A DNA stretch of 30,336 nucleotides from a virus: IMG/VR virus record IMGVR_UViG_3300046460_000432, positions 1 to 30,336 of that record, one strand, 5' to 3'. The translations under genes were made by a program, and so were the position numbers. The notes beneath the pieces were generated by a model that saw nothing but the letters and a program-made list of their open reading frames with translations, was not told the origin of the DNA and made no database searches. Below, one piece after another: positions 1 through 29,313 of the stretch (positions are counted from its first letter, which is position 1; every line of letters begins with the position of its first letter).

Positions 1-441
1 CAGATGCTGATCGGTTATCGCGAAACCCAGCGGGAGAACGGTTACGACGGTCAGTTCCTGTTCCCGTCCCGCAATGGCAAGGCGTTGAGCGAGGGTCAGG
101 CGTGCGCAGTATTCACGCGGCTGGGGCTGGGCGAGTGGACCAGCCACGACCTGCGGAAGGTGGCCCGTACCGGCTGGGCCGACATCGGCATCGACCACCT
201 GATCGGTGAGCTGTTGATCAACCACGCCATGGGCCACAACGTGAAGGTGTACATCCAGTCGGACGTGATGAGCCGCAAGCGTGAGGCCTTGGATCGGTGG
301 TGCGCCTATCTAGATGCAAAGGGTTTCAAGCGCATCCACACCTTGACCGGCCTTAGATCGGGAGATTCTGGTAATCAGCTACAGCCCACGGACGACGTGG
401 CTTTGAGTGCTATTCCAAAAACAACCATAGGCGAGGTTTAA
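1..441 (+). CDS. Tyrosine recombinase (phage integrase), C-terminal part
   Basis: This is the catalytic C-terminal part of a tyrosine site-specific recombinase; the reading frame is open from base 1, so the gene begins upstream of the window. Counting from the Met at base 4, the visible active-site elements are HDLRK (His48, Arg51), the downstream NHAMGH segment (His74/His77) and the likely nucleophile Tyr83 in KVYIQSD. About 60 residues follow the Tyr, and the last 35 or so look low in conservation. The family cuts and rejoins attachment sites during prophage integration and excision. It sits directly before late-control genes, 2 bp from the next ORF, rather than beside an attachment site. 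It may therefore be a second or relocated integrase. The family is clear; its role as the integrase of this prophage is inference. Confidence 0.85.
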   Translation, partial: QMLIGYRETQRENGYDGQFLFPSRNGKALSEGQACAVFTRLGLGEWTSHDLRKVARTGWADIGIDHLIGELLINHAMGHNVKVYIQSDVMSRKREALDRWCAYLDAKGFKRIHTLTGLRSGDSGNQLQPTDDVALSAIPKTTIGEV

Positions 442-443
442 AA

Positions 444-758
444 ATGATGAAAAAGCAGCATGGACCTGCCCTTGTGCGCAGTTTGATCCCGATGACCGAA
501 TGCCCGTCATGCGCCGGAAAGGGGGTAATCAAGGGAATGTTCCATGAACTCGACTGCATTGGCTGTCATTCATCCGGCTTCGTTCATGCCCAGACCATGG
601 AGCCGCTGTTGATCGAAGACCTGGTGGTCCAGCTTGGTCGATTGGTTCGTCGGGAGCGCAGTCAATTGGTCGACAAGAACCCAGCACGCTGCATCGTTGA
701 TGAATACCAGCAGAACAATAGCCGCGGTGCAGGCCGGTCGACTTACAAGGGGGATTGA
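444..758 (+). CDS. Small zinc-finger protein of the late-control region
   Basis: A 104-residue protein with a treble-type cysteine cluster near the N-terminus: CPSC, then about 15 residues, then CIGC. Gly-rich spacing resembles half of a DnaJ-type zinc finger. The rest is a helical, charged region with no motif I recognise. The start is ATG 444, two bases after the integrase stop, with GAGG just upstream; a second ATG follows at once at 447. It lies 3 bp before the next gene, so the two are probably co-transcribed. In lambdoid phages, small Zn-binding proteins of the nin region often precede the late antiterminator; the same place here suggests a nucleic-acid-related role. Function unknown. 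Confidence 0.7.
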   Translation: MMKKQHGPALVRSLIPMTECPSCAGKGVIKGMFHELDCIGCHSSGFVHAQTMEPLLIEDLVVQLGRLVRRERSQLVDKNPARCIVDEYQQNNSRGAGRSTYKGD

Positions 759-761
759 GTC

Positions 762-1325
762 ATGGGCATCTATAAAGACGTGATGAGCACGCTGGTCCGG
801 GTACTGGCCGCCGACAACATCGACAACAGCACGAAGCAATCCTGGCAGAAGCTGATCGACGCTGACGTTCGCTCGGGCGGTACCGGCAGTTCGCTCTCGG
901 TGCGCGATAAGTTCGATTACGACTGCTGCCTTTATGCGCTCCTGCATCGTCAGCTTGAGCCGGCACAGTGGGATGTTCTGGTTGCGAAGTACTCCACGCA
1001 TAAGGCCAACAAGGTTGCCGCCATCGGCCGTCTGGTGACCCGTATGGTTTCCCCAGCACCGCAACTGTTCATATATAAGGCGCTCACTGCGTGGGCCATT
1101 CCTAAACTGAAGGGTGTCCAGAACGGCAAGCGCTCCACCGACATGATCGTCCTGCCGGCCGAGTTCTACGACATGAACACCTGGGATTTGGAGGGTAAGC
1201 CAGAGTCGACACGCCGGCGCTGGAAGACGGGCATCGCAAAGCGCCTCGAGTCGTTGGAAGAGGCAGCAGTCATCCATGCGACCGAGATATTCGAACGGGA
1301 AGAAATCTTCATTGATGCCGCTTGA
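762..1325 (+). CDS. Conserved phage protein in the position of a late antiterminator (Q-like)
   Basis: A 187-residue basic/acidic mixed protein with no transmembrane segment or signal peptide. A conserved-looking core runs from SVRDKFDYDCCLYALL (about residues 46-61) through KYSTHKANKVAAIG to a helical C-terminus. ATG 762 is preceded by a good ribosome site (GGGGGA, about 8 bp upstream). Its stop codon lies inside a strong candidate promoter (1322-1350) followed by an intrinsic terminator at 1394. That is exactly the arrangement of lambda Q, pR' and tR', so I infer a late-transcription antitermination role. I do not recognise a Q-family sequence motif in it, so the function rests on context only. 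Confidence 0.6.
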   Translation: MGIYKDVMSTLVRVLAADNIDNSTKQSWQKLIDADVRSGGTGSSLSVRDKFDYDCCLYALLHRQLEPAQWDVLVAKYSTHKANKVAAIGRLVTRMVSPAPQLFIYKALTAWAIPKLKGVQNGKRSTDMIVLPAEFYDMNTWDLEGKPESTRRRWKTGIAKRLESLEEAAVIHATEIFEREEIFIDAA

Positions 1326-1350
1326 CGTAATGGCGGAATGATCGTAATTT
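1322..1350 (+). promoter_or_regulatory. Candidate late promoter (pR'-like)
   Basis: TTGACG at 1322-1327, a 17-bp spacer, then TAATTT at 1345-1350. This is close to the sigma70 consensus, and it overlaps the stop codon of the preceding Q-position gene. Transcription would start near 1357 and meet the terminator at 1394-1423, giving a leader of roughly 65 nt. A second, weaker candidate (TTGGCA 1349-1354, 19-bp spacer, TATTAT 1374-1379) lies just downstream. Confidence 0.55.
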
Positions 1351-1393
1351 GGCACCATCATGTCGATCTTGCGTATTATGAGAGACGACTTCA

Positions 1394-1423
1394 AAAGCCC
1401 GACTGCTGAGTCGGGCTTTCTTT
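1394..1423 (+). terminator. Intrinsic terminator (tR'-like)
   Basis: Perfect 11-bp stem AAAGCCCGACT / AGTCGGGCTTT (1394-1404 with 1409-1419), loop GCTG, followed by CTTT. It would stop transcripts from the promoter at 1322-1350 unless RNA polymerase is modified. Confidence 0.85.
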
Positions 1424-1448
1424 AAATGGAAGAATTTCAGAGATACGA

Positions 1449-1592
1449 ATGGACATTTCTAGCCATCCAGACAACTGCCAGTGCGAAGCTTGTGACGAGC
1501 TAGAGTATCGGGAAGAGCTTTGCGCCGATTGTGAGCGTCCTGCGACAGCGCTTCGCGATGGTGACTATGTTTGCGACGAATGCCTTACTTAG
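1449..1592 (+). CDS. 47-residue Cys-rich (zinc-ribbon-like) mini-protein
   Basis: A short ORF between two strong terminators encodes a 47-residue acidic protein with seven cysteines in pairs: CQCEAC (residues 10-15), CADC (25-28) and CDEC (42-45). The paired CxxC spacing and the high Asp/Glu content look like a genuine small zinc-binding protein rather than chance; no function is known to me. ATG 1449 is the only convincing start, with a weak purine-rich stretch upstream. Being between terminators, it would be expressed only when late transcription reads through. Confidence 0.55.
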   Translation: MDISSHPDNCQCEACDELEYREELCADCERPATALRDGDYVCDECLT

Positions 1593-1611
1593 ATCAAGAG
1601 AATTCCTAGAC

Positions 1612-1638
1612 AAGCCCTGCCACTGAGCAGGGCTTTTC
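1612..1638 (+). terminator. Intrinsic terminator
   Basis: 9-bp perfect stem AAGCCCTGC / GCAGGGCTT (1612-1620 with 1627-1635), 6-nt loop, followed by TTC and T-rich sequence. Confidence 0.8.
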
Positions 1639-1725
1639 TGTCTATGCGCTGTTGAAAAGGCGTTCACCCTCGTCAGCTTCATGTCCCGTAACGCAAGTCC
1701 GAATCGAACCAGCAATAAATTCAAG

Positions 1726-1752
1726 GCCTCGGCATTTTTGCCGGGGCTTTTT
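1726..1752 (+). terminator. Intrinsic terminator before the lysis genes
   Basis: Stem GCCTCGGC / GCCGGGGC (1726-1733 with 1740-1747, one T-G pair), loop ATTTTT, then TTTTT. It is the third terminator in about 360 bp between the candidate late promoter and the holin. The stretch 1593-1840 holds these two terminators and no other gene I can support. Confidence 0.7.
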
Positions 1753-1840
1753 CGTTTTCGGTTCCACCACACCCATCGCTCCGAGCTGGGAGTGCTGCTG
1801 GAGCCGGATCTATTTCGCTCCCCGAAAGGGAGGATTTCGG

Positions 1841-2170
1841 ATGCCAAACATGCCCGACAAACCAGATACTTGGCTTATCGCGGTGGCCTGGCTCAGCCAG
1901 CATGCCCCGATGTTCTATGCCGCGACGCTGTCGTGTTGGATTGCCTTCCTCCGCGTCATTTACGGCGGTGGAGGGCGGCGGCAGGCCCTGTTGGAATCCT
2001 GCTTGTGCGGCGCGATCACAGCTGGGGCCTTCCCACTGCTCGAATACTTCAACCTCCCATCAAGTCTGGCAGCAGCCCTCGGCGCCGTCATTGGCACTCT
2101 GGGGGTGAAGAAGGTGGCCGCACTGGCCGACCGATTCACTGACTTCAAGTTGCCCAAGCGGCAGGAGTGA
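1841..2170 (+). CDS. Class I holin (lambda S-like family)
   Basis: A 109-residue membrane protein that would form the inner-membrane lesion releasing endolysin. Three hydrophobic segments are visible, at about residues 21-39, 50-68 and 74-94, followed by a charged tail ending KLPKRQE. The length and three-segment layout fit the lambda S / Phage_holin_3_1 type. ATG 1841 has an excellent ribosome site (GGGAGGA at 1828-1834). The frame is open further upstream, but that extension crosses a terminator and has no ribosome site. The N-terminus MPNMPDKPD has a second Met at codon 4, recalling the dual start of lambda S. The next gene begins 3 bp downstream. The endolysin is about 26 kb away at the other end of the prophage. 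Confidence 0.8.
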   Translation: MPNMPDKPDTWLIAVAWLSQHAPMFYAATLSCWIAFLRVIYGGGGRRQALLESCLCGAITAGAFPLLEYFNLPSSLAAALGAVIGTLGVKKVAALADRFTDFKLPKRQE

Positions 2171-2173
2171 TCC

Positions 2174-2368
2174 ATGCAACTCATCGACAACTGGAAACAA
2201 GCGCTGACCATGACCAGTGTTCAGGCAGGCGGCGCTATTGCAGTTCTGGGTGTGGCCGAGCAGCTGATGCCATCGCTACAGGCAGTGCTGCCACCGGTGG
2301 CCTATGGCGTGCTGGGCCTCCTGGTGATGATCGCCCGGGTCGTGCTGCAACCGAAGCTGACCAAGTAG
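2174..2368 (+). CDS. Second small holin-like membrane protein
   Basis: A 64-residue protein with a short polar N-terminus, an Ala/Gly-rich hydrophobic stretch (about residues 17-31) and a stronger membrane segment (about 38-58), then the basic tail QPKLTK. It is directly downstream of the holin with a 3-bp gap, and has its own ribosome site (AGGAG at 2165-2169 approximately). Size, topology and position suit a second holin or antiholin of the kind often paired with class I holins in Pseudomonas prophages. Whether it promotes or delays lysis cannot be told from sequence. Confidence 0.65.
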   Translation: MQLIDNWKQALTMTSVQAGGAIAVLGVAEQLMPSLQAVLPPVAYGVLGLLVMIARVVLQPKLTK

Positions 2369-2378
2369 GTGGCTGGTG

Positions 2379-2567
2379 ATGGTGTGCACTGGATGCGCCG
2401 CCCGGCGTGAATGGATTAAGAAGTGGAGTGCAGTTGCATATGAGCGGGCAAGCGATCTCCTATCTCGCCGAGATACTGAGCGAACAGAAGAAGCAGACAG
2501 CGATCCTCGAACGGATGGCAGAGCAACAGACCCTGCTGATCCAAACGATGGCCGAGGACGAGCCTGA
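2379..2567 (+). CDS. Small phage protein with N-terminal CxxC, overlaps the next gene
   Basis: A 62-residue ORF beginning MVCTGCAARREWIKKW, preceded by AGGTGG 8 bp upstream of ATG 2379 (GTG 2376 is an alternative start). The CxxC followed by a basic, Trp-rich helix and AYERA looks like a real phage protein start. After about residue 30 the sequence becomes a low-complexity Asp/Arg/Thr-rich stretch that overlaps the next gene in another frame, so only the N-terminal half may be constrained. Function unknown. Confidence 0.45.
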   Translation: MVCTGCAARREWIKKWSAVAYERASDLLSRRDTERTEEADSDPRTDGRATDPADPNDGRGRA

Positions 2568-2619
2568 AGACTCTGATGCACCGCCCCTCACCTACATGGA
2601 TGGCACACCATGCCGCTGA
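2440..2619 (+). CDS. Small coiled-coil phage protein
   Basis: A 59-residue acidic protein: a helical segment ISYLAEILSEQKKQTAILE, then a second helix rich in Gln/Met, ending with an acidic linker and YMDGTPCR. Such Gln/Glu-rich short coiled-coil proteins are common just before the HNH gene in Pseudomonas phages. The start is taken as ATG 2440 (GGAG 11 bp upstream); GTG 2428 and ATG 2407 are in frame as alternatives. It overlaps the preceding ORF by 128 bp in a different frame and the HNH gene by 10 bp. Function unknown. Confidence 0.55.
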   Translation: MSGQAISYLAEILSEQKKQTAILERMAEQQTLLIQTMAEDEPEDSDAPPLTYMDGTPCR

Positions 2620-2984
2620 GGCCGCAGAAGCCGTGCAACGCCCAGGGTTGCAACACACTCACGCGCAACCCTCGCTACTGTGATGAACATGCTCACCTGC
2701 TGAAGAGTACGGCCCGGGCCAAGCCTCGGGAGAGCAGCACCAAGCGACACTACAACTACAAGTGGCAGCAGGCCCGGGCCGGCTTCCTCGCGAAGCATCC
2801 GCTCTGTCTTCATTGCTCGGCGCGTGGGTTGGTGGTTGTGGCCACCGATGTCGACCACATCATCCCTCACAAGAACGACATGGCCCTGTTCTGGGACAAG
2901 ACCAACTGGCAGAGCCTGTGCGGACCGTGCCACTCGGCCAAGACGGCCGCCGAAGACGGCGGATTCGGCAATGCGAGGCGCTGA
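2610..2984 (+). CDS. HNH endonuclease (packaging-associated)
   Basis: A 124-residue HNH nuclease. The core is DVDHIIPH (Asp82-His83), Asn99 in TNW and His108 in CGPCH, with structural zinc cysteines C66xxC69 and C104xxC107. A second small Cys/His cluster (C9, C14, C24, H27) sits at the N-terminus. In HK97-like phages an HNH protein encoded beside the terminase (HK97 gp74) is needed for terminase to cut cos ends. Its place just before the small terminase matches that role here. It overlaps the preceding gene by 10 bp. The nuclease call is firm; the packaging role follows from family and context. Confidence 0.9.
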   Translation: MPLRPQKPCNAQGCNTLTRNPRYCDEHAHLLKSTARAKPRESSTKRHYNYKWQQARAGFLAKHPLCLHCSARGLVVVATDVDHIIPHKNDMALFWDKTNWQSLCGPCHSAKTAAEDGGFGNARR

Positions 2985-3143
2985 AAGCAGAAAAACCCCG
3001 GAAAAACAGTGAAATTTGACCAAATGAGAGCGATTCGCGCTCATGGGGAGGGGGAGGGGCGAAAGTCTGGGCCTTTTGGCTTCTAGACCGCGCCCTCAGT
3101 CTTTTTCTTACACCCGCGAAATTAAAAGTTCAGGAGTTGCGCG
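2985..3143 (+). other. Candidate cos region
   Basis: A 159-bp gap between the HNH and small terminase genes. It contains an imperfect inverted repeat (ATGAGAGCG at 3024-3032, CGCGCTCAT at 3036-3044) immediately followed by a G-rich run with three G-blocks (3045-3059). Phages with HNH + P27 small terminase + this type of large terminase are usually cos-packaged, with cos next to these genes. The exact nicking positions cannot be read from sequence alone. The ribosome site for the terminase gene (CAGGAG) lies at the right end. Confidence 0.4.
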
Positions 3144-3632
3144 ATGGGAGGCACCGCCACGGTCGCCGGCCGTGGTCGCAAACCCAAGCCGACGGCCAAG
3201 AAAGAGTTGGCCGGGAACCCCGGCAAGCGGGCTCTGAACAAATCCGAGCCCAAGTTTTCCGAGATCACCAAAGACATCGATCCGCCGGAATGGATGAGCG
3301 AGCTTGCCGCCACGATGTGGAAGATGGTCGTGCCGGAACTGCTGCGTGAACACGTTATCGCGCTCACCGATCTGCACAACGTTGAAGCTTTCTGTACGGC
3401 CTACAGCAAGTGGCGGATGGCTGAAAAATCCGTACAGGATTTCGGGATCGTCGTTCAGTCATCGCAGGGCAGCCCTATGAAAAACCCTGCGCTCACCGCT
3501 GCCAACGAAGCAATGCGTCAGATGGTGACCTTTGGATCGATGCTCGGGCTTGATCCGGCCAGCCGTACGCGACTGATCGGAGGCAACAAGCAGCGCACAA
3601 CCAATGAATTCGCCAACCTACTGAGTTCCTGA
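3144..3632 (+). CDS. terS: Terminase small subunit, P27 family
   Basis: A 162-residue DNA-recognition subunit of the packaging motor. The N-terminus has the basic, Gly/Pro/Lys-rich opening typical of P27-family subunits (GRKPKP, then LAGNPGKR), followed by an all-helical body with the [11 protein letters not shown] helix. The C-terminus has the family ending with [10 protein letters not shown] (about residues 132-141). ATG 3144 has CAGGAG about 8 bp upstream. The stop codon overlaps the ATG of the large subunit (ATGA), indicating translational coupling. The length is normal for the family. Confidence 0.9.
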
Positions 3633-5356
3633 TGACCAAATCCCTGCACGCCAATGTCGACAAGGCAATGGCTTGGGGGCGGTCATTGCTGCGCGGAAAG
3701 GTGCCAGCCTGCCGATACATCCATCAGGCAGTGCAGCGCCACTTCGACGACCTGGCTGCGAGCAGAAAGCGCGGCTTCAAGTTCAAGTTCGACGCGGTCA
3801 AGGCTGAGAAAAAGCTACGTCTGATCCAGCTGCTACCGCACACGAAAGGCGAGTGGGCGTTCAAGCGTCAGCTAATCAGCCTAGAGTCGTGGCAGCTATT
3901 TGGCCTGGCAGTCACCTTTGGTTGGGTAAAGAAGAAGGGCGGCCACCGCCGTTTCCGTGAAAGCTACTGGGAAGTGCCGCGCAAAAACGGCAAATCAGTA
4001 GTCGCAGGTGGTGTCGGTATCAGCATGTTTGTCGCGGATGGTGAGTTCGGTGCCGAGGTGTACGCCGGCGCGACCACAGAGAAGCAGGCGTGGGAGGTTT
4101 TCAGGCCAGCGAAACTGATGGTCAGCAAGTCGCCGATGCTAATCGAGGCGGCCGGCATCGAGGTCAACGCCTCGAACATGAACATCCCTTCCGACTTCAG
4201 CCGCTTCGAGCCGCTGATTGGAAACCCAGGCGATGGTGCGTCACCCAGCTGCGCCATCGTCGACGAATACCACGAACATCCGACATCGGCTCAGTACGAC
4301 ACCATGCTCACCGGTATGGGCGCACGACGGCAGCCGCTGATGTTTATCATCACCACCGCCGGCGCCGATATCGAAGGTCCGTGTTACGACAAGCGCCGCC
4401 AAGTCGTTGAGATGCTGGCGGGAACGGTCCCTGACGAAGAGTTGTTCGGCTGGATCTGGACGCTGGACGAGGGTGATGACTGGACCGACCCGAAGATGCT
4501 GGCCAAGGCGAACCCCAACCACGGGGTTTCGGTGTTCCAAGAGTATTTGGAGAGCCAGCAAGCCAGAGCAATACGCTCAGCGCGCTTCGCGAACACGTTC
4601 AAAACGAAGCACCTGAACCTCTGGGTGAGCGCGAAATCCGGCTTCTACAACATGGAGAGCTGGAAATCCTGCGAAGACACCACGCTCACCCTTGATCAAT
4701 TCGAGGGGCAGGAGTGGATCGGCTCATTCGACTTGGCTCGCAAGCTCGACATGAACTCCAGGGCTCGTCTGTTTTGGCGTGTCATCGACGGCAAAGTTCA
4801 CTATTACAGCGTGGCTCCAAAGTTTTGGGTGCCGGAAGATACGGCCTTCAACAGCGACAACAAGCGCATGGCGGAGCGGTTCCAAGCATGGATCAATTCT
4901 CGTCATCTGGACGTGACTGATGGTGCCGAGATCGATTACCGAGAAATCTTGGAAGACACCAAGGAAGCCAATCACCAGGCACCGATTCGCGAATGCCCTA
5001 TCGACCCTTTCGGCGCGACGGGGCTGATGCACGACTTAGATGACGAGGGCTTCAACCCGATCACGATCACCCAGAACTACACCAACATGTCGGACCCAAT
5101 GAAAGAGCTTGAGGCCGCCATTGAGTCCGGGCGCTTTCACCATGACGGCAACCCGATCATGACCTGGTGTATCGGCAACGTGATCGGCAAAAACCTGCCA
5201 GGCAATGACGATGTCGTCCGCCCGATCAAGCAGGGCGACGACAACAAGATAGATGGCGCGGTCGCGCTGATCATGGCCATTGGCAGGGTTCTGATAAATG
5301 TGAAACAGCCAGACACCAGCGGCTTCTACGAAAACCCAATCATGGTAGGCATTTAA
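3632..5356 (+). CDS. terL: Terminase large subunit (packaging ATPase/nuclease)
   Basis: A 574-residue motor protein that pumps DNA into the procapsid and cuts the concatemer. Walker A is PRKNGKS (residues 116-122) and Walker B is AIVDEY with Asp211-Glu212. A C-terminal RNase H-fold nuclease is indicated by the [10 protein letters not shown] stretch near residue 365 and later acidic residues. Size and motif order match the HK97-type large terminase. It is coupled to the small subunit by a 4-bp overlap and to the portal gene by ATG/TAA sharing of a base at 5356. No lesions were seen. Confidence 0.95.
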
Positions 5357-24760: not shown

Positions 24761-25204
24761 CTTTTTCCTTCTTACTCTCATCAACACGTCACGCGCGGCG
24801 AAAGCCGCATTGATCTCGCGCGGCCTCGCTGAGATGTCGCGGTTCGTGGTAACGCATGAGGTGGCTCAGCAACCGCCAGCGGCCTCGCGGGCTAGGTAAC
24901 CTCGTGTTGATTGCGATAAGCCATCAGTCACAAATCTGCGGCTTGACATCAGCATTTGATGAATTTTCACAAATGCAACCGTCTCACTACTTGGTCAAAG
25001 GAGCCCTATGTGGCTCAATAATTGCTCGAAAAATTTGACGGGCGCATGCCATTCGTTGATGCTACGGCCGGTAAAAAAATGGCCGCCGCGCTGTGCAGAC
25101 CGCAATGAGACAGTTCATGAACCGTCGAATTACAACCGAATAGGTGCCGAAGCGCCGCACGTTATGCATAGAACGAACACATATCTATCCAAATGGGAGC
25201 ATTC
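24761..25204. other. Intergenic stretch before the LicD-like gene
   Basis: 444 bp without a convincing gene. It has a GCGGC-GAAA-GCCGC hairpin at 24795-24808, a TTGACA hexamer at 24943-24948 without a good -10 partner, and AAAGGAGCCCT before ATG 25008. That ATG opens a 76-codon ORF of odd composition (many Trp, His, Arg, Pro), overlapping the LicD gene out of frame. It may be the degraded remains of earlier accessory genes and probably holds the promoter of the LicD operon. Confidence 0.4.
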
Positions 25205-26266
25205 ATGGAAAAGGCCGTGCAGGAGATTTGGGGATTAGTTGAGACGTTCAATGACAAGGAACTTACGGGTTGGGTCAATTTGGCTCAGGGCGAGACTTAT
25301 CGAGAAATCTTTCTTTGCGTAAATGGTAAGCCGGTACAGAAAATTAGGACTTCCGGCCCCATCGAGCGGGATTTGCCTTTTGCTGTTCACCGCTTCTCAT
25401 TGCGGATGAGCTCGCTATGGCATTACGTCTCCCCGAACGACAAAGTTTCAATTAAAGTCAACGATCACGACTTACATATTGCAGGGTATGGTCGTGTGTA
25501 CTCGCCTCTAATCGCGGGCGTGTTAACTACCAGCGTACTTTTCACTAAGCTGGGACGAAAGTATGTTTTCAACCAAAAGGGATCTCTGCAGCTTTCAAAA
25601 ACAGTTGATTTGAAATGGCAGAAAAGGACGTTTGATCTCTATAGTATGGTACGAGAGCACTTGAAGGCGGTGTTCTCTGTCGACCTCGTTGTCATCTATG
25701 GCACTCTCCTTGGCGCTGTGCGGTCAGGCCAGTTCATCGGTCATGATCACGACTTTGATGTTGGCTTCATTTCGAAATTTTCGGCACCAGAAGAGGTTCG
25801 CCAGGAAGCAATTCGAATAGCTGAGAACCTCGTGACATCTGGCTTCCAAATAACGGTGAAACCGTCTTGCATCTATGTTAGACATCCAAGCATCCCAAAA
25901 GCTCAAATCGACATCGGAAGAATTTTTCTCGGCCAGGACAGCAAGCTGCAAACAGCTTTCGGTTTTGCTGGCACGACAGAGTACACAGCTGATCATTTCA
26001 GCGGCGTGGTTCCGATCGAACTTGCCGGAAGCACCGTATATTCCGTGTCCAATCCTGAGGTGCTATTAAGCTGTATCTATGGTGACGAGTGGCGTATTCC
26101 GAACTCTGGCTTCAACTGGGATAGAGAGCGCCGCCGTATCACCCGAGCAGCGCGACTCACCAAAGCTGAAATTCTCTCAATAGCAGAATTTGTAGAGAAG
26201 CACGCAGATGTTGAAACACAAGAGCCGGATCAACCAGGCTCCGCTAACGCTGAAGTTAAGGGATGA
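25205..26266 (+). CDS. LicD/fukutin-family phosphotransferase with N-terminal beta domain
   Basis: A 353-residue cytoplasmic enzyme. Residues 1-100 form a beta-rich domain (GLVETFNDKELTGWVNL, FLCVNGKPVQKI) of a type I associate with bacterial glycan-modifying enzymes. The catalytic part has IYGTLLGAVRSGQFIGHDHD with Gly166 and the metal-binding Asp181, Asp183 and Asp185, the core of the LicD/fukutin nucleotidyltransferase fold. Members transfer phosphocholine or glycerol/ribitol phosphate from CDP-activated donors to glycans. The next gene makes CDP-glycerol, so a glycerol-phosphate transferase is the best guess. ATG 25205 has GGGAG 5 bp upstream. The gene is more AT-rich than the phage structural genes, suggesting separate acquisition. 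The substrate is inferred. Confidence 0.8.
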   Translation: MEKAVQEIWGLVETFNDKELTGWVNLAQGETYREIFLCVNGKPVQKIRTSGPIERDLPFAVHRFSLRMSSLWHYVSPNDKVSIKVNDHDLHIAGYGRVYSPLIAGVLTTSVLFTKLGRKYVFNQKGSLQLSKTVDLKWQKRTFDLYSMVREHLKAVFSVDLVVIYGTLLGAVRSGQFIGHDHDFDVGFISKFSAPEEVRQEAIRIAENLVTSGFQITVKPSCIYVRHPSIPKAQIDIGRIFLGQDSKLQTAFGFAGTTEYTADHFSGVVPIELAGSTVYSVSNPEVLLSCIYGDEWRIPNSGFNWDRERRRITRAARLTKAEILSIAEFVEKHADVETQEPDQPGSANAEVKG

Positions 26267-26279
26267 GGCGGATCTCCAC

Positions 26280-26696
26280 ATGCAAAAGGAAACAGGAAAG
26301 TTGAAGCGAGTTATAACATTCGGAACATATGATGTCCTGCATGTCGGACATATACGCATTCTGCAGCGTGCGCGTGCTTTGGGCGATTATCTAATTGTTG
26401 GTGTTTCTACTGATGCTTTGAACTATTCCAAAAAGCAGAAGTACCCTATTTACAACGAAGCTGACCGAATGGAGATTATCCGTTCGATTGCGGGCGTCGA
26501 TGAAGTTTTTCTTGAGGACTCGCTCGAGCTAAAGGGGGAGTATATCAAGGAGTTCAACGCCGATTTGCTGGTCATGGGCGATGACTGGGCCGGTCGATTT
26601 GACGAGTGGAAGTCTCATTGTGAAGTGCTTTATCTCCCAAGAACCGACGGTATCTCAACGACGATGACACTTGAAGGAATTCGAAGCAGTATATAA
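26280..26696 (+). CDS. CTP:glycerol-3-phosphate cytidylyltransferase (TagD-like)
   Basis: A 138-residue nucleotidyltransferase that makes CDP-glycerol from CTP and sn-glycerol 3-phosphate. The signature motifs are FGTYDVLHVGH (HxGH at residues 21-24) and RTDGISTT (residues 121-128), which bind CTP. DDWAGRFDEW (about 101-110) is also typical of the TagD/GCT group rather than of heptose or FAD enzymes. The length is normal for TagD (about 130). The start is ATG 26280, 13 bp after the LicD stop; the frame is open upstream, but that would overlap LicD. It is co-directional with LicD and supplies its probable donor substrate. Composition is AT-rich like its partner. Confidence 0.88.
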   Translation: MQKETGKLKRVITFGTYDVLHVGHIRILQRARALGDYLIVGVSTDALNYSKKQKYPIYNEADRMEIIRSIAGVDEVFLEDSLELKGEYIKEFNADLLVMGDDWAGRFDEWKSHCEVLYLPRTDGISTTMTLEGIRSSI

Positions 26697-26918
26697 CTAA
26701 TGTACTGTTCTCGAAATTATTTATCCTCCTCTTGCGCCCTCTAGGGATGATCTGAACTGGCCACCGATAATTGATGCAATCCGCGCTCGGGTTTCAAAAA
26801 ACGGTGGCCTAACTGAAAGTCAGACCTGGGCGTCTCTCAACTCAAGCTTTTCCTTGAGTTGCAGTTCTCCAAAGCGGTTGACTTGCCCCTGACGGGGCAG
26901 GCGCTCAGATCGACGCTA
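26697..26918. repeat. Inverted repeats between convergent accessory genes
   Basis: No gene seen. It contains GGCCACCG (26759-26766) and its inverse CGGTGGCC (26802-26809), each flanked by TCTGA/TCAGA-like sequence in inverted order. There is also a perfect 8-bp hairpin AACTCAAG / CTTGAGTT (26839-26846 with 26853-26860) and TGCCCC-TGAC-GGGGCA (26884-26899). The first pair could be leftover ends of an IS21-like element; the hairpins may end transcription of the two converging genes, but neither is followed by a T run. Confidence 0.4.
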
Positions 26919-27701
26919 CTAGCCTTTACGGAATTTAAAAATCTTCGGCTTGAACTCTGAGATGGAACCTGCCGCTATTTCTGCGCTGAGCTTTTTACAG
27001 AAGCTAGCAGGGTCTGCATACCCAATTTCAGAAATCCTCTTGGGGTCGTAATTCCACCACTCAAGTCTGCTTAGCTCAGCTATCACTTCGGGGTCGAACC
27101 GATATTTGAGGACTCTTGCAGGATTACCCCCAACAACCGCATAAGGTGGGACGTCTTTAGTCACCAGCGAGCCCGCTGCCACCACAGCCCCATTACCTAT
27201 TTTGATGCCCATGCATAGGGTAACGTCCCGGCCGATCCATACGTCGTGACCTAGCACCGGGTATTCTTTTCCCCCGAATTTGTGCCAGTTGTATTGCGCG
27301 GTCTGCTCCTTTGTCACAAATTCGCTGACGAGCGAATTGTTTGGCCGGAATGTGATGATGGATGTAGTTACCAGGTCCATCGGATGGTGGGAATCGAGGA
27401 TGGCCAATCCATTGGAGATTGAGCAGTACCGGCCCACTTTCATGGGTTCTGGCAGTGCCGAGTAGGAATAGGAGAATGAGCCAATGCTGCACAGGCCAGA
27501 ATAGCTTCCCCCACCTACACAGCCTTTGTAGTTCCCTTTGTACAGCCCTGAGTAGCTCTCAATGCGGACGTAGGATTTGATTTTCACCTCCACATTGAGA
27601 GGCAGCCAGCCGAAGGCGTTTACTGATGGTGCTGGCGAGTTTACGCGAAACAACACCTTGCTTTGCCACAGTTGCTCAGCTAATGCAGTAGTGAAAATCA
27701 T
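26919..27701 (-). CDS. CatB-like (left-handed beta-helix) O-acetyltransferase
   Basis: A 260-residue hexapeptide-repeat acyltransferase. The repeats are clear in [34 protein letters not shown] and [19 protein letters not shown] (about residues 155-205). The segment [22 protein letters not shown] carries the catalytic-type His of the CatB/xenobiotic acyltransferase group. The C-terminal RLEWWNYDP is also typical of that group. The first 80 residues include Gly/Tyr/Ser-rich repeats ([19 protein letters not shown]) that lengthen the helix. The family moves acetyl from acetyl-CoA to sugars or antibiotics; in a prophage next to LicD/TagD, acetylation of a surface glycan is most likely. ATG 27701 has AAGGA upstream. 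It faces left, against the late genes. Confidence 0.85.
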
Positions 27702-27737
27702 CAACAACGTCCTTGCCTATCATCGAGCGGGGCAGCA

Positions 27738-28500: not shown

Positions 28501-29313
28501 ATGATGCGTTGGGCAAGAGCACTCACGTTTTTCGCTGCAGCTTCGTATTCAGCCATCATTTTTGCCTGGGGAATCGAGGGACATCGAACCGTCGCCCTTA
28601 TCGCCGATGCGGAACTGACTGCTTCCGCGAGGGCTCAGGTCCATCAGCTACTGGCACTAGAGGGACGAGAAAGCATGGGCGATGTCGCATCATGGGCTGA
28701 CGAAATCCGAGGTAAGGAGCCTGAGCTGTCAAATCACACTGTACGCATTCCCTTCAAAGCGACGCAGTACGACCCGAATCGTGACTGCAGTCGCAAAGGA
28801 CGATGCGTCATCTACGGCATTCAAAGTGCATCTGAGCAATTGGCCAACCAAAACATCCCCCCTCTTGAGCGACTTCGAGCCCTTAAATTCCTTATCCACT
28901 ATGTCGGCGACATCCATCAACCCTTGCATGCAATCAAGCAAATAGGTCAAATGCAAGCTCAATGGGGCAAGCGCCATTGGAGGCTGCACAAAATCTGGGA
29001 CACCATCCTTATTCGATCACTTAAAAGAAGCCCCGAAGAGCTCGCGCAAGACCTTTTTACCGACCCGACATATGCATATGTACAACAGGGAACCCCCGAG
29101 CAATGGGCGATGGAAAGCCATGACATCGCCCGAAATTTTATCTATCACAACGACATGAATACTGCCAAAACCAAGGAGACTATTACTCTACCGAATGGTT
29201 ATCCAGAGGACTCAGTACCTGTCGTAAAGAAACGTCTTGCGGCCGCGGGTATTCGCCTTGGCAGATTACTCAACCAATTACTATCGACCTCTCCGCACGC
29301 TTCTGAAAAATGA
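28501..29313 (+). CDS. Secreted S1/P1-family zinc nuclease
   Basis: A 270-residue protein with a signal peptide (residues 1-22, charged start, Phe/Ala core) such that the mature chain would begin with Trp23, itself a zinc ligand in this family. All nine ligands of the tri-zinc site can be placed: Trp23, His28, Asp67, His79, His133, Asp137, His143 (HYVGDIHQPLH), His163 and Asp167 (LHKIWD). The family cleaves single-stranded nucleic acids and 3'-phosphates; here it would be periplasmic or secreted. ATG 28504 has better spacing from AGGA than 28501. It sits alone after the endolysin, so it may be an accessory cargo gene. Its benefit to phage or lysogen is unknown. Confidence 0.88.
   Translation: MMRWARALTFFAAASYSAIIFAWGIEGHRTVALIADAELTASARAQVHQLLALEGRESMGDVASWADEIRGKEPELSNHTVRIPFKATQYDPNRDCSRKGRCVIYGIQSASEQLANQNIPPLERLRALKFLIHYVGDIHQPLHAIKQIGQMQAQWGKRHWRLHKIWDTILIRSLKRSPEELAQDLFTDPTYAYVQQGTPEQWAMESHDIARNFIYHNDMNTAKTKETITLPNGYPEDSVPVVKKRLAAAGIRLGRLLNQLLSTSPHASEK

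Follow-up and report, generated by a model that had tools for sequence, protein, structure and literature searches.

The protein encoded at 762–1325 of the window, by which we mean the whole stretch of 30,336 nucleotides of viral DNA that was analysed, is very probably a processive antiterminator of the Q type belonging to a family that has not been recognised as such, and the DNA from 1322 to 1423 would be both its loading site and its first target. A preliminary description of this sequence had proposed a late switch of the Q–pR′–tR′ kind operated by a new antiterminator type. The proposal of a late switch is supported by cis-elements conserved in register, by co-variation between protein and DNA, by a held-out test on distant homologues and by the lack of any known Q family in phages carrying the gene. 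As to the new type, the novelty applies to the protein family, for which no sequence, profile or fold match was found; the mechanism looks like a known one, so the kind of regulation is not new. The coordinates of the features discussed below are given in Table 1.

Table 1. Features of the putative late switch and its surroundings (positions in the window)
Feature	Position	Strand	Remarks
Q-like late antiterminator gene (putative)	762..1325	+	187 aa, ATG start; PHROG_3412; homologue of D3 Orf84 and F10 gp58
Codons 146–159, predicted recognition segment, start of long C-terminal helix 148–179	1197..1238	+	co-vary with the repeat
−35 element TTGACG	1322..1327	+	the gene's TGA stop (1323–1325) lies within it
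Upstream half-site TGGCG of putative Q-binding element	1331..1335	+	
Downstream half-site TGATC	1339..1343	+	8 bp from upstream half-site
−10 element TAATTT	1345..1350	+	TAAATT in most relatives; predicted start 1357
−10-like CATCAT at −1 to +5, predicted sigma-dependent pause element	1356..1361	+	conservation; position as CACGAT in PalpB
Leader RNA hairpin (GTCG...CGAC), pause sequence in loop	1362..1389	+	fold and co-variation
TGCG at +14 to +17, near-invariant	1370..1373	+	fits T-G-Y-G of elemental pause consensus
First late terminator (tR′-like)	1394..1423	+	perfect 11-bp stem, 4-nt loop, T tail
47-aa CxxC-rich ORF between terminators 1 and 2	1449..1592	+	possible first late gene
Second terminator ahead of holin	1612..1635	+	
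Third terminator ahead of holin	1723..1750	+	
Holin, first recognised late (lysis) gene	1841..2170	+	PF05106, E 5e-24; TIGR01594

The gene is real and conserved. Its product matched PHROG_3412, a family listed as of "unknown function", with an E value of 4e-80. No match was found in Pfam (E<1), NCBIfam or the sequences of the PDB, and the protein therefore lacks a recognised Q motif, as had been stated. Relatives occur in 62 phage records, nearly all of them from Pseudomonas phages, under the annotation 'hypothetical'. In D3 (Orf84), F10, PAN70, Solano, BUCT566 and PMG1 the homologue comes last, behind the replication/nin genes, and the late/lysis region follows on its 3′ side, sometimes with tRNA genes first. 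Genes of the family thus lie at the end of the early operon, directly 5′ of the putative late promoter and the lysis genes. When 198 genomes from the host's family were sampled, a profile of the proteins found the gene in 29, and among 369 genomes sampled across the class the gene was present only in the query genome itself.

The predicted structure of the protein consists of helices throughout, and a long loop precedes the final one. AlphaFold models of the window protein and of one homologue (L114) were of moderate confidence (pLDDT 79 and 82), with flexible segments at residues 39–47 and 113–130. Several homologues (L108, L117, L271, L275 and others) carry an insert of about 40–50 residues in the loop at 118–124, between the helices that flank the recognition region.

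Directly upstream of the gene, at 444–758, lies a reading frame for a small zinc-finger protein of the DnaJ type (CxxCxGxG; PHROG_5085), and directly upstream of these two genes is the C-terminal part of a tyrosine integrase (4–441; PF00589, E 2e-4; PHROG_1). Reading frames with CxxC pairs are found no more than 450 bp upstream in 185 of the 269 Q homologues with sufficient flanking sequence. As lambda Q contains a zinc finger within the Q protein itself, it is conceivable that the 444–758 protein is a partner of the 762–1325 protein.

The 3′ end of the gene lies inside a promoter, as first described, with the stop codon within the −35 element and a spacer of 17 bp (TAATGGCGGAATGATCG) between this and the −10 element. 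The promoter had been called near-consensus, which is too generous: the −35 element matches at five of six positions and TAATTT at three of six when compared with TATAAT, eight of twelve in total, and the −10 element of the window taken alone is weak. When positions 1–5000 of the window were scanned for sites matching the consensus at nine of twelve positions, no promoter-like site was found on the plus strand, 1322–1350 included, and the sole match was a minus-strand site at chance level. What raises the promoter at 1322–1350 above chance is therefore its conservation at the same place in homologous loci, and not its own score.

A module consisting of promoter, repeat and leader was found 3′ of the gene in 239 of 255 unique homologous loci. 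The spacing was 17 bp in 171 loci and 18 bp in 67, and the −35 element overlapped the stop codon of the gene in 166 of the 239 modules. Inspection of the sequences of the 16 loci without a module call indicated that several were misses of the search pattern, and the module is truly absent from the end of the gene in about 8 homologues. A blastn search with the module of the window returned a single phage record, so that DNA similarity alone would have missed this conservation.

Between the −35 and −10 elements, where a Q-binding element would be expected, the modules contain a direct repeat with a period of 8 bp. Autocorrelation of the spacers at an offset of 8 was 0.70, compared with 0.26±0.04 for shuffled spacers and 0.36 or less at every other offset. 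The same periodicity was seen within each of five unrelated classes of half-site (TGGCC, TGAGC, GCAAC, CCATC and TGTCC), where identity at offset 8 ranged from 0.67 to 0.75. The repeat had been spotted by eye before the autocorrelation was computed, and a held-out test on distant homologues provides cleaner evidence. Twenty such homologues were chosen by protein profile alone (E 1e-18 to 1e-80) and their flanks were then inspected. By reading, 16 of the 20 had a promoter–repeat–terminator module at the end of the gene, mostly with TGAGC repeats; the module was absent from this position in L462, L464, L469 and L474.

Gene and module are also found together when the leader is taken as the starting point. 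IMG/VR contains 72 exact leader sites, of which 69 are found less than 70 bp after the gene and two at contig edges; at the remaining site the gene is 1.07 kb upstream and the TGAGC repeat promoter is kept. Locus L260 has about 1 kb between the Q-like gene and the module (553–1125 and 2187), with TGAGC repeat and leader both kept. At L208 and related loci a promoter with a TGAGC-type repeat is fused to a leader of the window type, suggesting recombination between binding element and leader.

The sequence of the repeat is linked to that of the protein. Among 131 window-like proteins, residues 146, 149, 153, 156 and 159, all in the predicted recognition segment, track the repeat class. Residue 149 is serine in all 39 proteins associated with TGGCG/TGRTC repeats, and arginine in all 92 associated with TGGCC repeats. 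A lesser signal was seen at positions 143–164, 179 and 184, and most other positions carry little information on repeat class. On a tree of residues 1–140 of the window-like clade, repeat class changed at least 16 times, with only one independent pair on well-supported branches, so that co-variation within the clade is not proven to be independent of descent.

The arrangement of the module resembles that of the phage 21 late promoter. In the binding element of 21Q, TGAGCA is directly repeated, and the C:G pairs at −21 and −13 are essential (PMC6606751). Late promoters of the phage 21 type were retrieved together with their gene, whose product matches PDB entries 6jnx and 6p18. The TGAGC subclass of the present family has the same half-site as phage 21 pR′, the same 8-bp period and the same register to the start, and the two have in common their promoter layout, CA at −1/+1, a terminator just 3′ and tRNA or lysis genes thereafter (D3 resembles Sf6). 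The 21Q-type repeat, TGAGCA with C at −21 and −13, is present in the TGAGC subclass and in distant homologues, but not in the window, whose half-sites TGGCG and TGATC are shifted by one base in register. Phage 21 also differs from the 762–1325 family in that the latter has an extra leader hairpin between pause and terminator.

These likenesses raise the question of whether the 762–1325 protein belongs, as a strongly diverged member, to the 21Q family (Phage_antitermQ, PF06530) and not to a separate one, an alternative that concerns ancestry only and is compatible with antiterminator function. Besides the half-site, period and register shared with phage 21, the predicted structure, helical throughout and with a long loop ahead of its final helix, agrees with what has been described for 21Q. 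Against common ancestry, there was no Pfam match at E<1, and profile–profile comparison of 57 family sequences with 30 PF06530 members including 21Q, using hhalign, gave a probability of 0.5%. Foldseek searches of the PDB with the two models (pLDDT 79–82, with flexible segments) gave no convincing match and retrieved no structure of AlpA, of lambda Q or of 21Q, whose fold is a sigma-R4-like HTH core with an N-terminal ring segment, although 6jnx and 6p18 are in the database; the best viral match was an uncharacterised phage protein (E 5e-3). Membership of the 21Q family is thus doubtful, and without a profile or fold match the mechanism cannot be transferred to the 762–1325 protein on grounds of homology. 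A likeness between 'KPSLATCRREVDEIL' and 'KPESTRRRWKTGIAKRL', picked by eye as a sign of homology to 21Q, was not supported by the profile–profile comparison. DUF1133 (PF06576), a weak relative of 21Q, was absent from 59 Pseudomonas genomes. PF06530 proteins were found in 16 of 99 Pseudomonas genomes, and 34 phages that carry the gene had no PF06530 match and no match to PF03589 above cut-off.

Other known antiterminators were also considered. Like lambda Q and 82Q, for which we take the function to be equal, the gene closes the early operon and precedes the lysis genes, but its product has no match to PF03589 (Antiterm) and is missing the zinc finger of lambda Q. AlpA, of the P. aeruginosa alp cell-death pathway, is also a Pseudomonas antiterminator that acts between −35 and −10. 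Its promoter has a −10-like CACGAT at −1 to +5, close to CATC[AC]T here, and an intrinsic terminator downstream. AlpA differs in recognising the motif GGGACGN5GGTA as a single bound molecule, in contrast to the direct repeat here. This motif of the AlpA-binding element was absent from the window spacer and from the list of spacers of the homologues, and a search of Pseudomonas genomes with the published AlpA promoter motif returned unrelated coding sequence only. The PDB comparisons by sequence and fold, which should include AlpA, gave no match to the 762–1325 protein; AlpA was otherwise compared by description. GafZ of the Caulobacter gene transfer agent, likewise set against the family by description, resembles it in being dissimilar to Q proteins and in having its putative site in the −35 to −10 interval (PMC11150451), but works with GafY and IHF and has another promoter layout.

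A common mechanism without sequence similarity has been described for 21Q, lambda Q, 82Q and AlpA (PMC9371919). Because known Q proteins are dissimilar in sequence, a lack of homology does not count against the functional reading of the 762–1325 protein; it does mean that this protein cannot be filed in the 21Q, lambda Q, 82Q or AlpA family. As no likeness to 21Q was detected in sequence or fold, nor a match to any other Q-like protein of solved structure, the 762–1325 proteins look like a further Q-type family, restricted, as far as the sampled sequences indicate, to the Pseudomonadaceae.

Two elements of the initial transcribed region are near-invariant in the 239 modules: CATC[AC]T at −1 to +5 and TGCG at +14 to +17. 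The second matches the T-G-Y-G part of what we take to be the elemental pause consensus, and would place the RNA end at +16. The first supplies A+1 and T+5 of a −10-like sequence, and a pause is predicted here. In PalpB the corresponding sequence is CACGAT at −1 to +5, and A+1 and T+5 are required for AlpA action (PMC9371919).

The leader tends to form a hairpin with the predicted pause sequence in its loop, and the two halves of this hairpin co-vary: 5′ and 3′ halves from the same native leader fold better than swapped ones, by 1.6 kcal/mol (z −6.4), and the difference persisted when leaders were collapsed to types (z −4.8; 0 of 20,000 permutations). Some leaders, for example those of L052, L054 and L106, do not have the hairpin. 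Comparison with Rfam gave sub-threshold matches only, with no family above the cut-off. One and the same leader can accompany repeats of different classes (L208 class), so that the recognition helix of the protein probably does not read it. Tentatively, the hairpin may have a role in pause escape or in RNA stability.

Terminators follow the leader as had been described. The stem of the first is formed by 1394–1404 and 1409–1419, with a T tail to 1423, and extends from about +38 to +67; two more precede the holin gene. An intrinsic terminator close to the promoter on its 3′ side was found in 232 of the 239 homologous modules, with a median start at +38 (interquartile range 36–44). The same lax scan gave terminators in 94 of 239 shuffled sequences and 78 of 233 control stretches.

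Further along the window, a cluster at 25193–27707, flanked by the tail genes and a chitinase-like endolysin, contains a LicD-like protein (a weak match), a cytidylyltransferase (CTP_transf_like, E 8e-23) and a hexapeptide acyltransferase (minus strand), and looks like surface-modification cargo. An S1/P1 nuclease (28501–29313; PF02265, E 3e-51) adjoins the endolysin, and its N-terminus resembles a signal peptide by eye.

An ordinary repressor or activator bound to the promoter repeats would affect initiation only; the intergenic terminators would then be ordinary ones and the late genes would be driven from elsewhere. The co-variation of protein and repeat speaks for DNA recognition only, and a site between −35 and −10 would fit a repressor. 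However, the near-invariant pause elements, the terminator at about +38 and the exact phage 21 register are left unexplained by such a factor. The scan of positions 1–5000 of the window at nine of twelve gave no plus-strand promoter-like site from which the late genes could be driven, and no other Q-family gene was found in the 34 phages carrying the gene. We consider an ordinary factor improbable. Still less probable is that the leader RNA itself antiterminates, as put of HK022 does, while the protein does something else: co-variation of the hairpin (z −6.4) and the pairing of one leader with different repeat types (L208 class) are in its favour, but the hairpin is missing in some leaders (for example L052, L054, L106), and this reading gives no account of the repeats or of the way they co-vary with the protein.

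The sequences themselves show where the gene lies, and they show the promoter, the repeats, the pause elements, the terminators and the co-variation of protein and repeat; DNA binding by the C-terminal helix, loading, modification of the polymerase and read-through are what we infer. In the antiterminator reading, host sigma-70 RNA polymerase would start at 1357. Region 2 of sigma would re-bind at CATCAT and, together with TGCG, cause the polymerase to halt near +16. Protein bound to the repeats with their 8-bp spacing would sit beside the RNA exit channel and transfer to the halted polymerase, which, so modified, would escape and ignore all three terminators, allowing transcription of the holin and later genes. 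When the protein is absent, transcription would stop after a leader RNA of about 67 nt.

A bolder proposal, which we regard as speculative and unlikely in its entirety, is that a Q protein whose fold is not related to those of 21Q, lambda Q, 82Q or AlpA arrived by convergence at the same tandem TGAGC-type loading site with its 8-bp period, and that the pause-enclosing hairpin works in loading, in pause escape or in keeping a short prophage RNA stable before induction. If this is true, unrelated proteins would have come to share a single DNA geometry, which would imply that the choice of site lies with the paused polymerase.

More families of Q-like antiterminators have been predicted still to be found (PMC9371919). 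We found no publication in the open-licence literature that gives the PHROG_3412 family an antiterminator function. With the present assignment these proteins, 'hypothetical' in D3 and F10, gain a specific and testable role as the missing late regulators of those phages, and one protein family would be added to the three classical Q families and AlpA. The variety of its repeat classes, linked as they are to a short helix, would amount to a natural specificity table for an antiterminator, which would allow orthogonal read-through switches to be made, as well as tests of what leads unrelated Q proteins to one common spacing.
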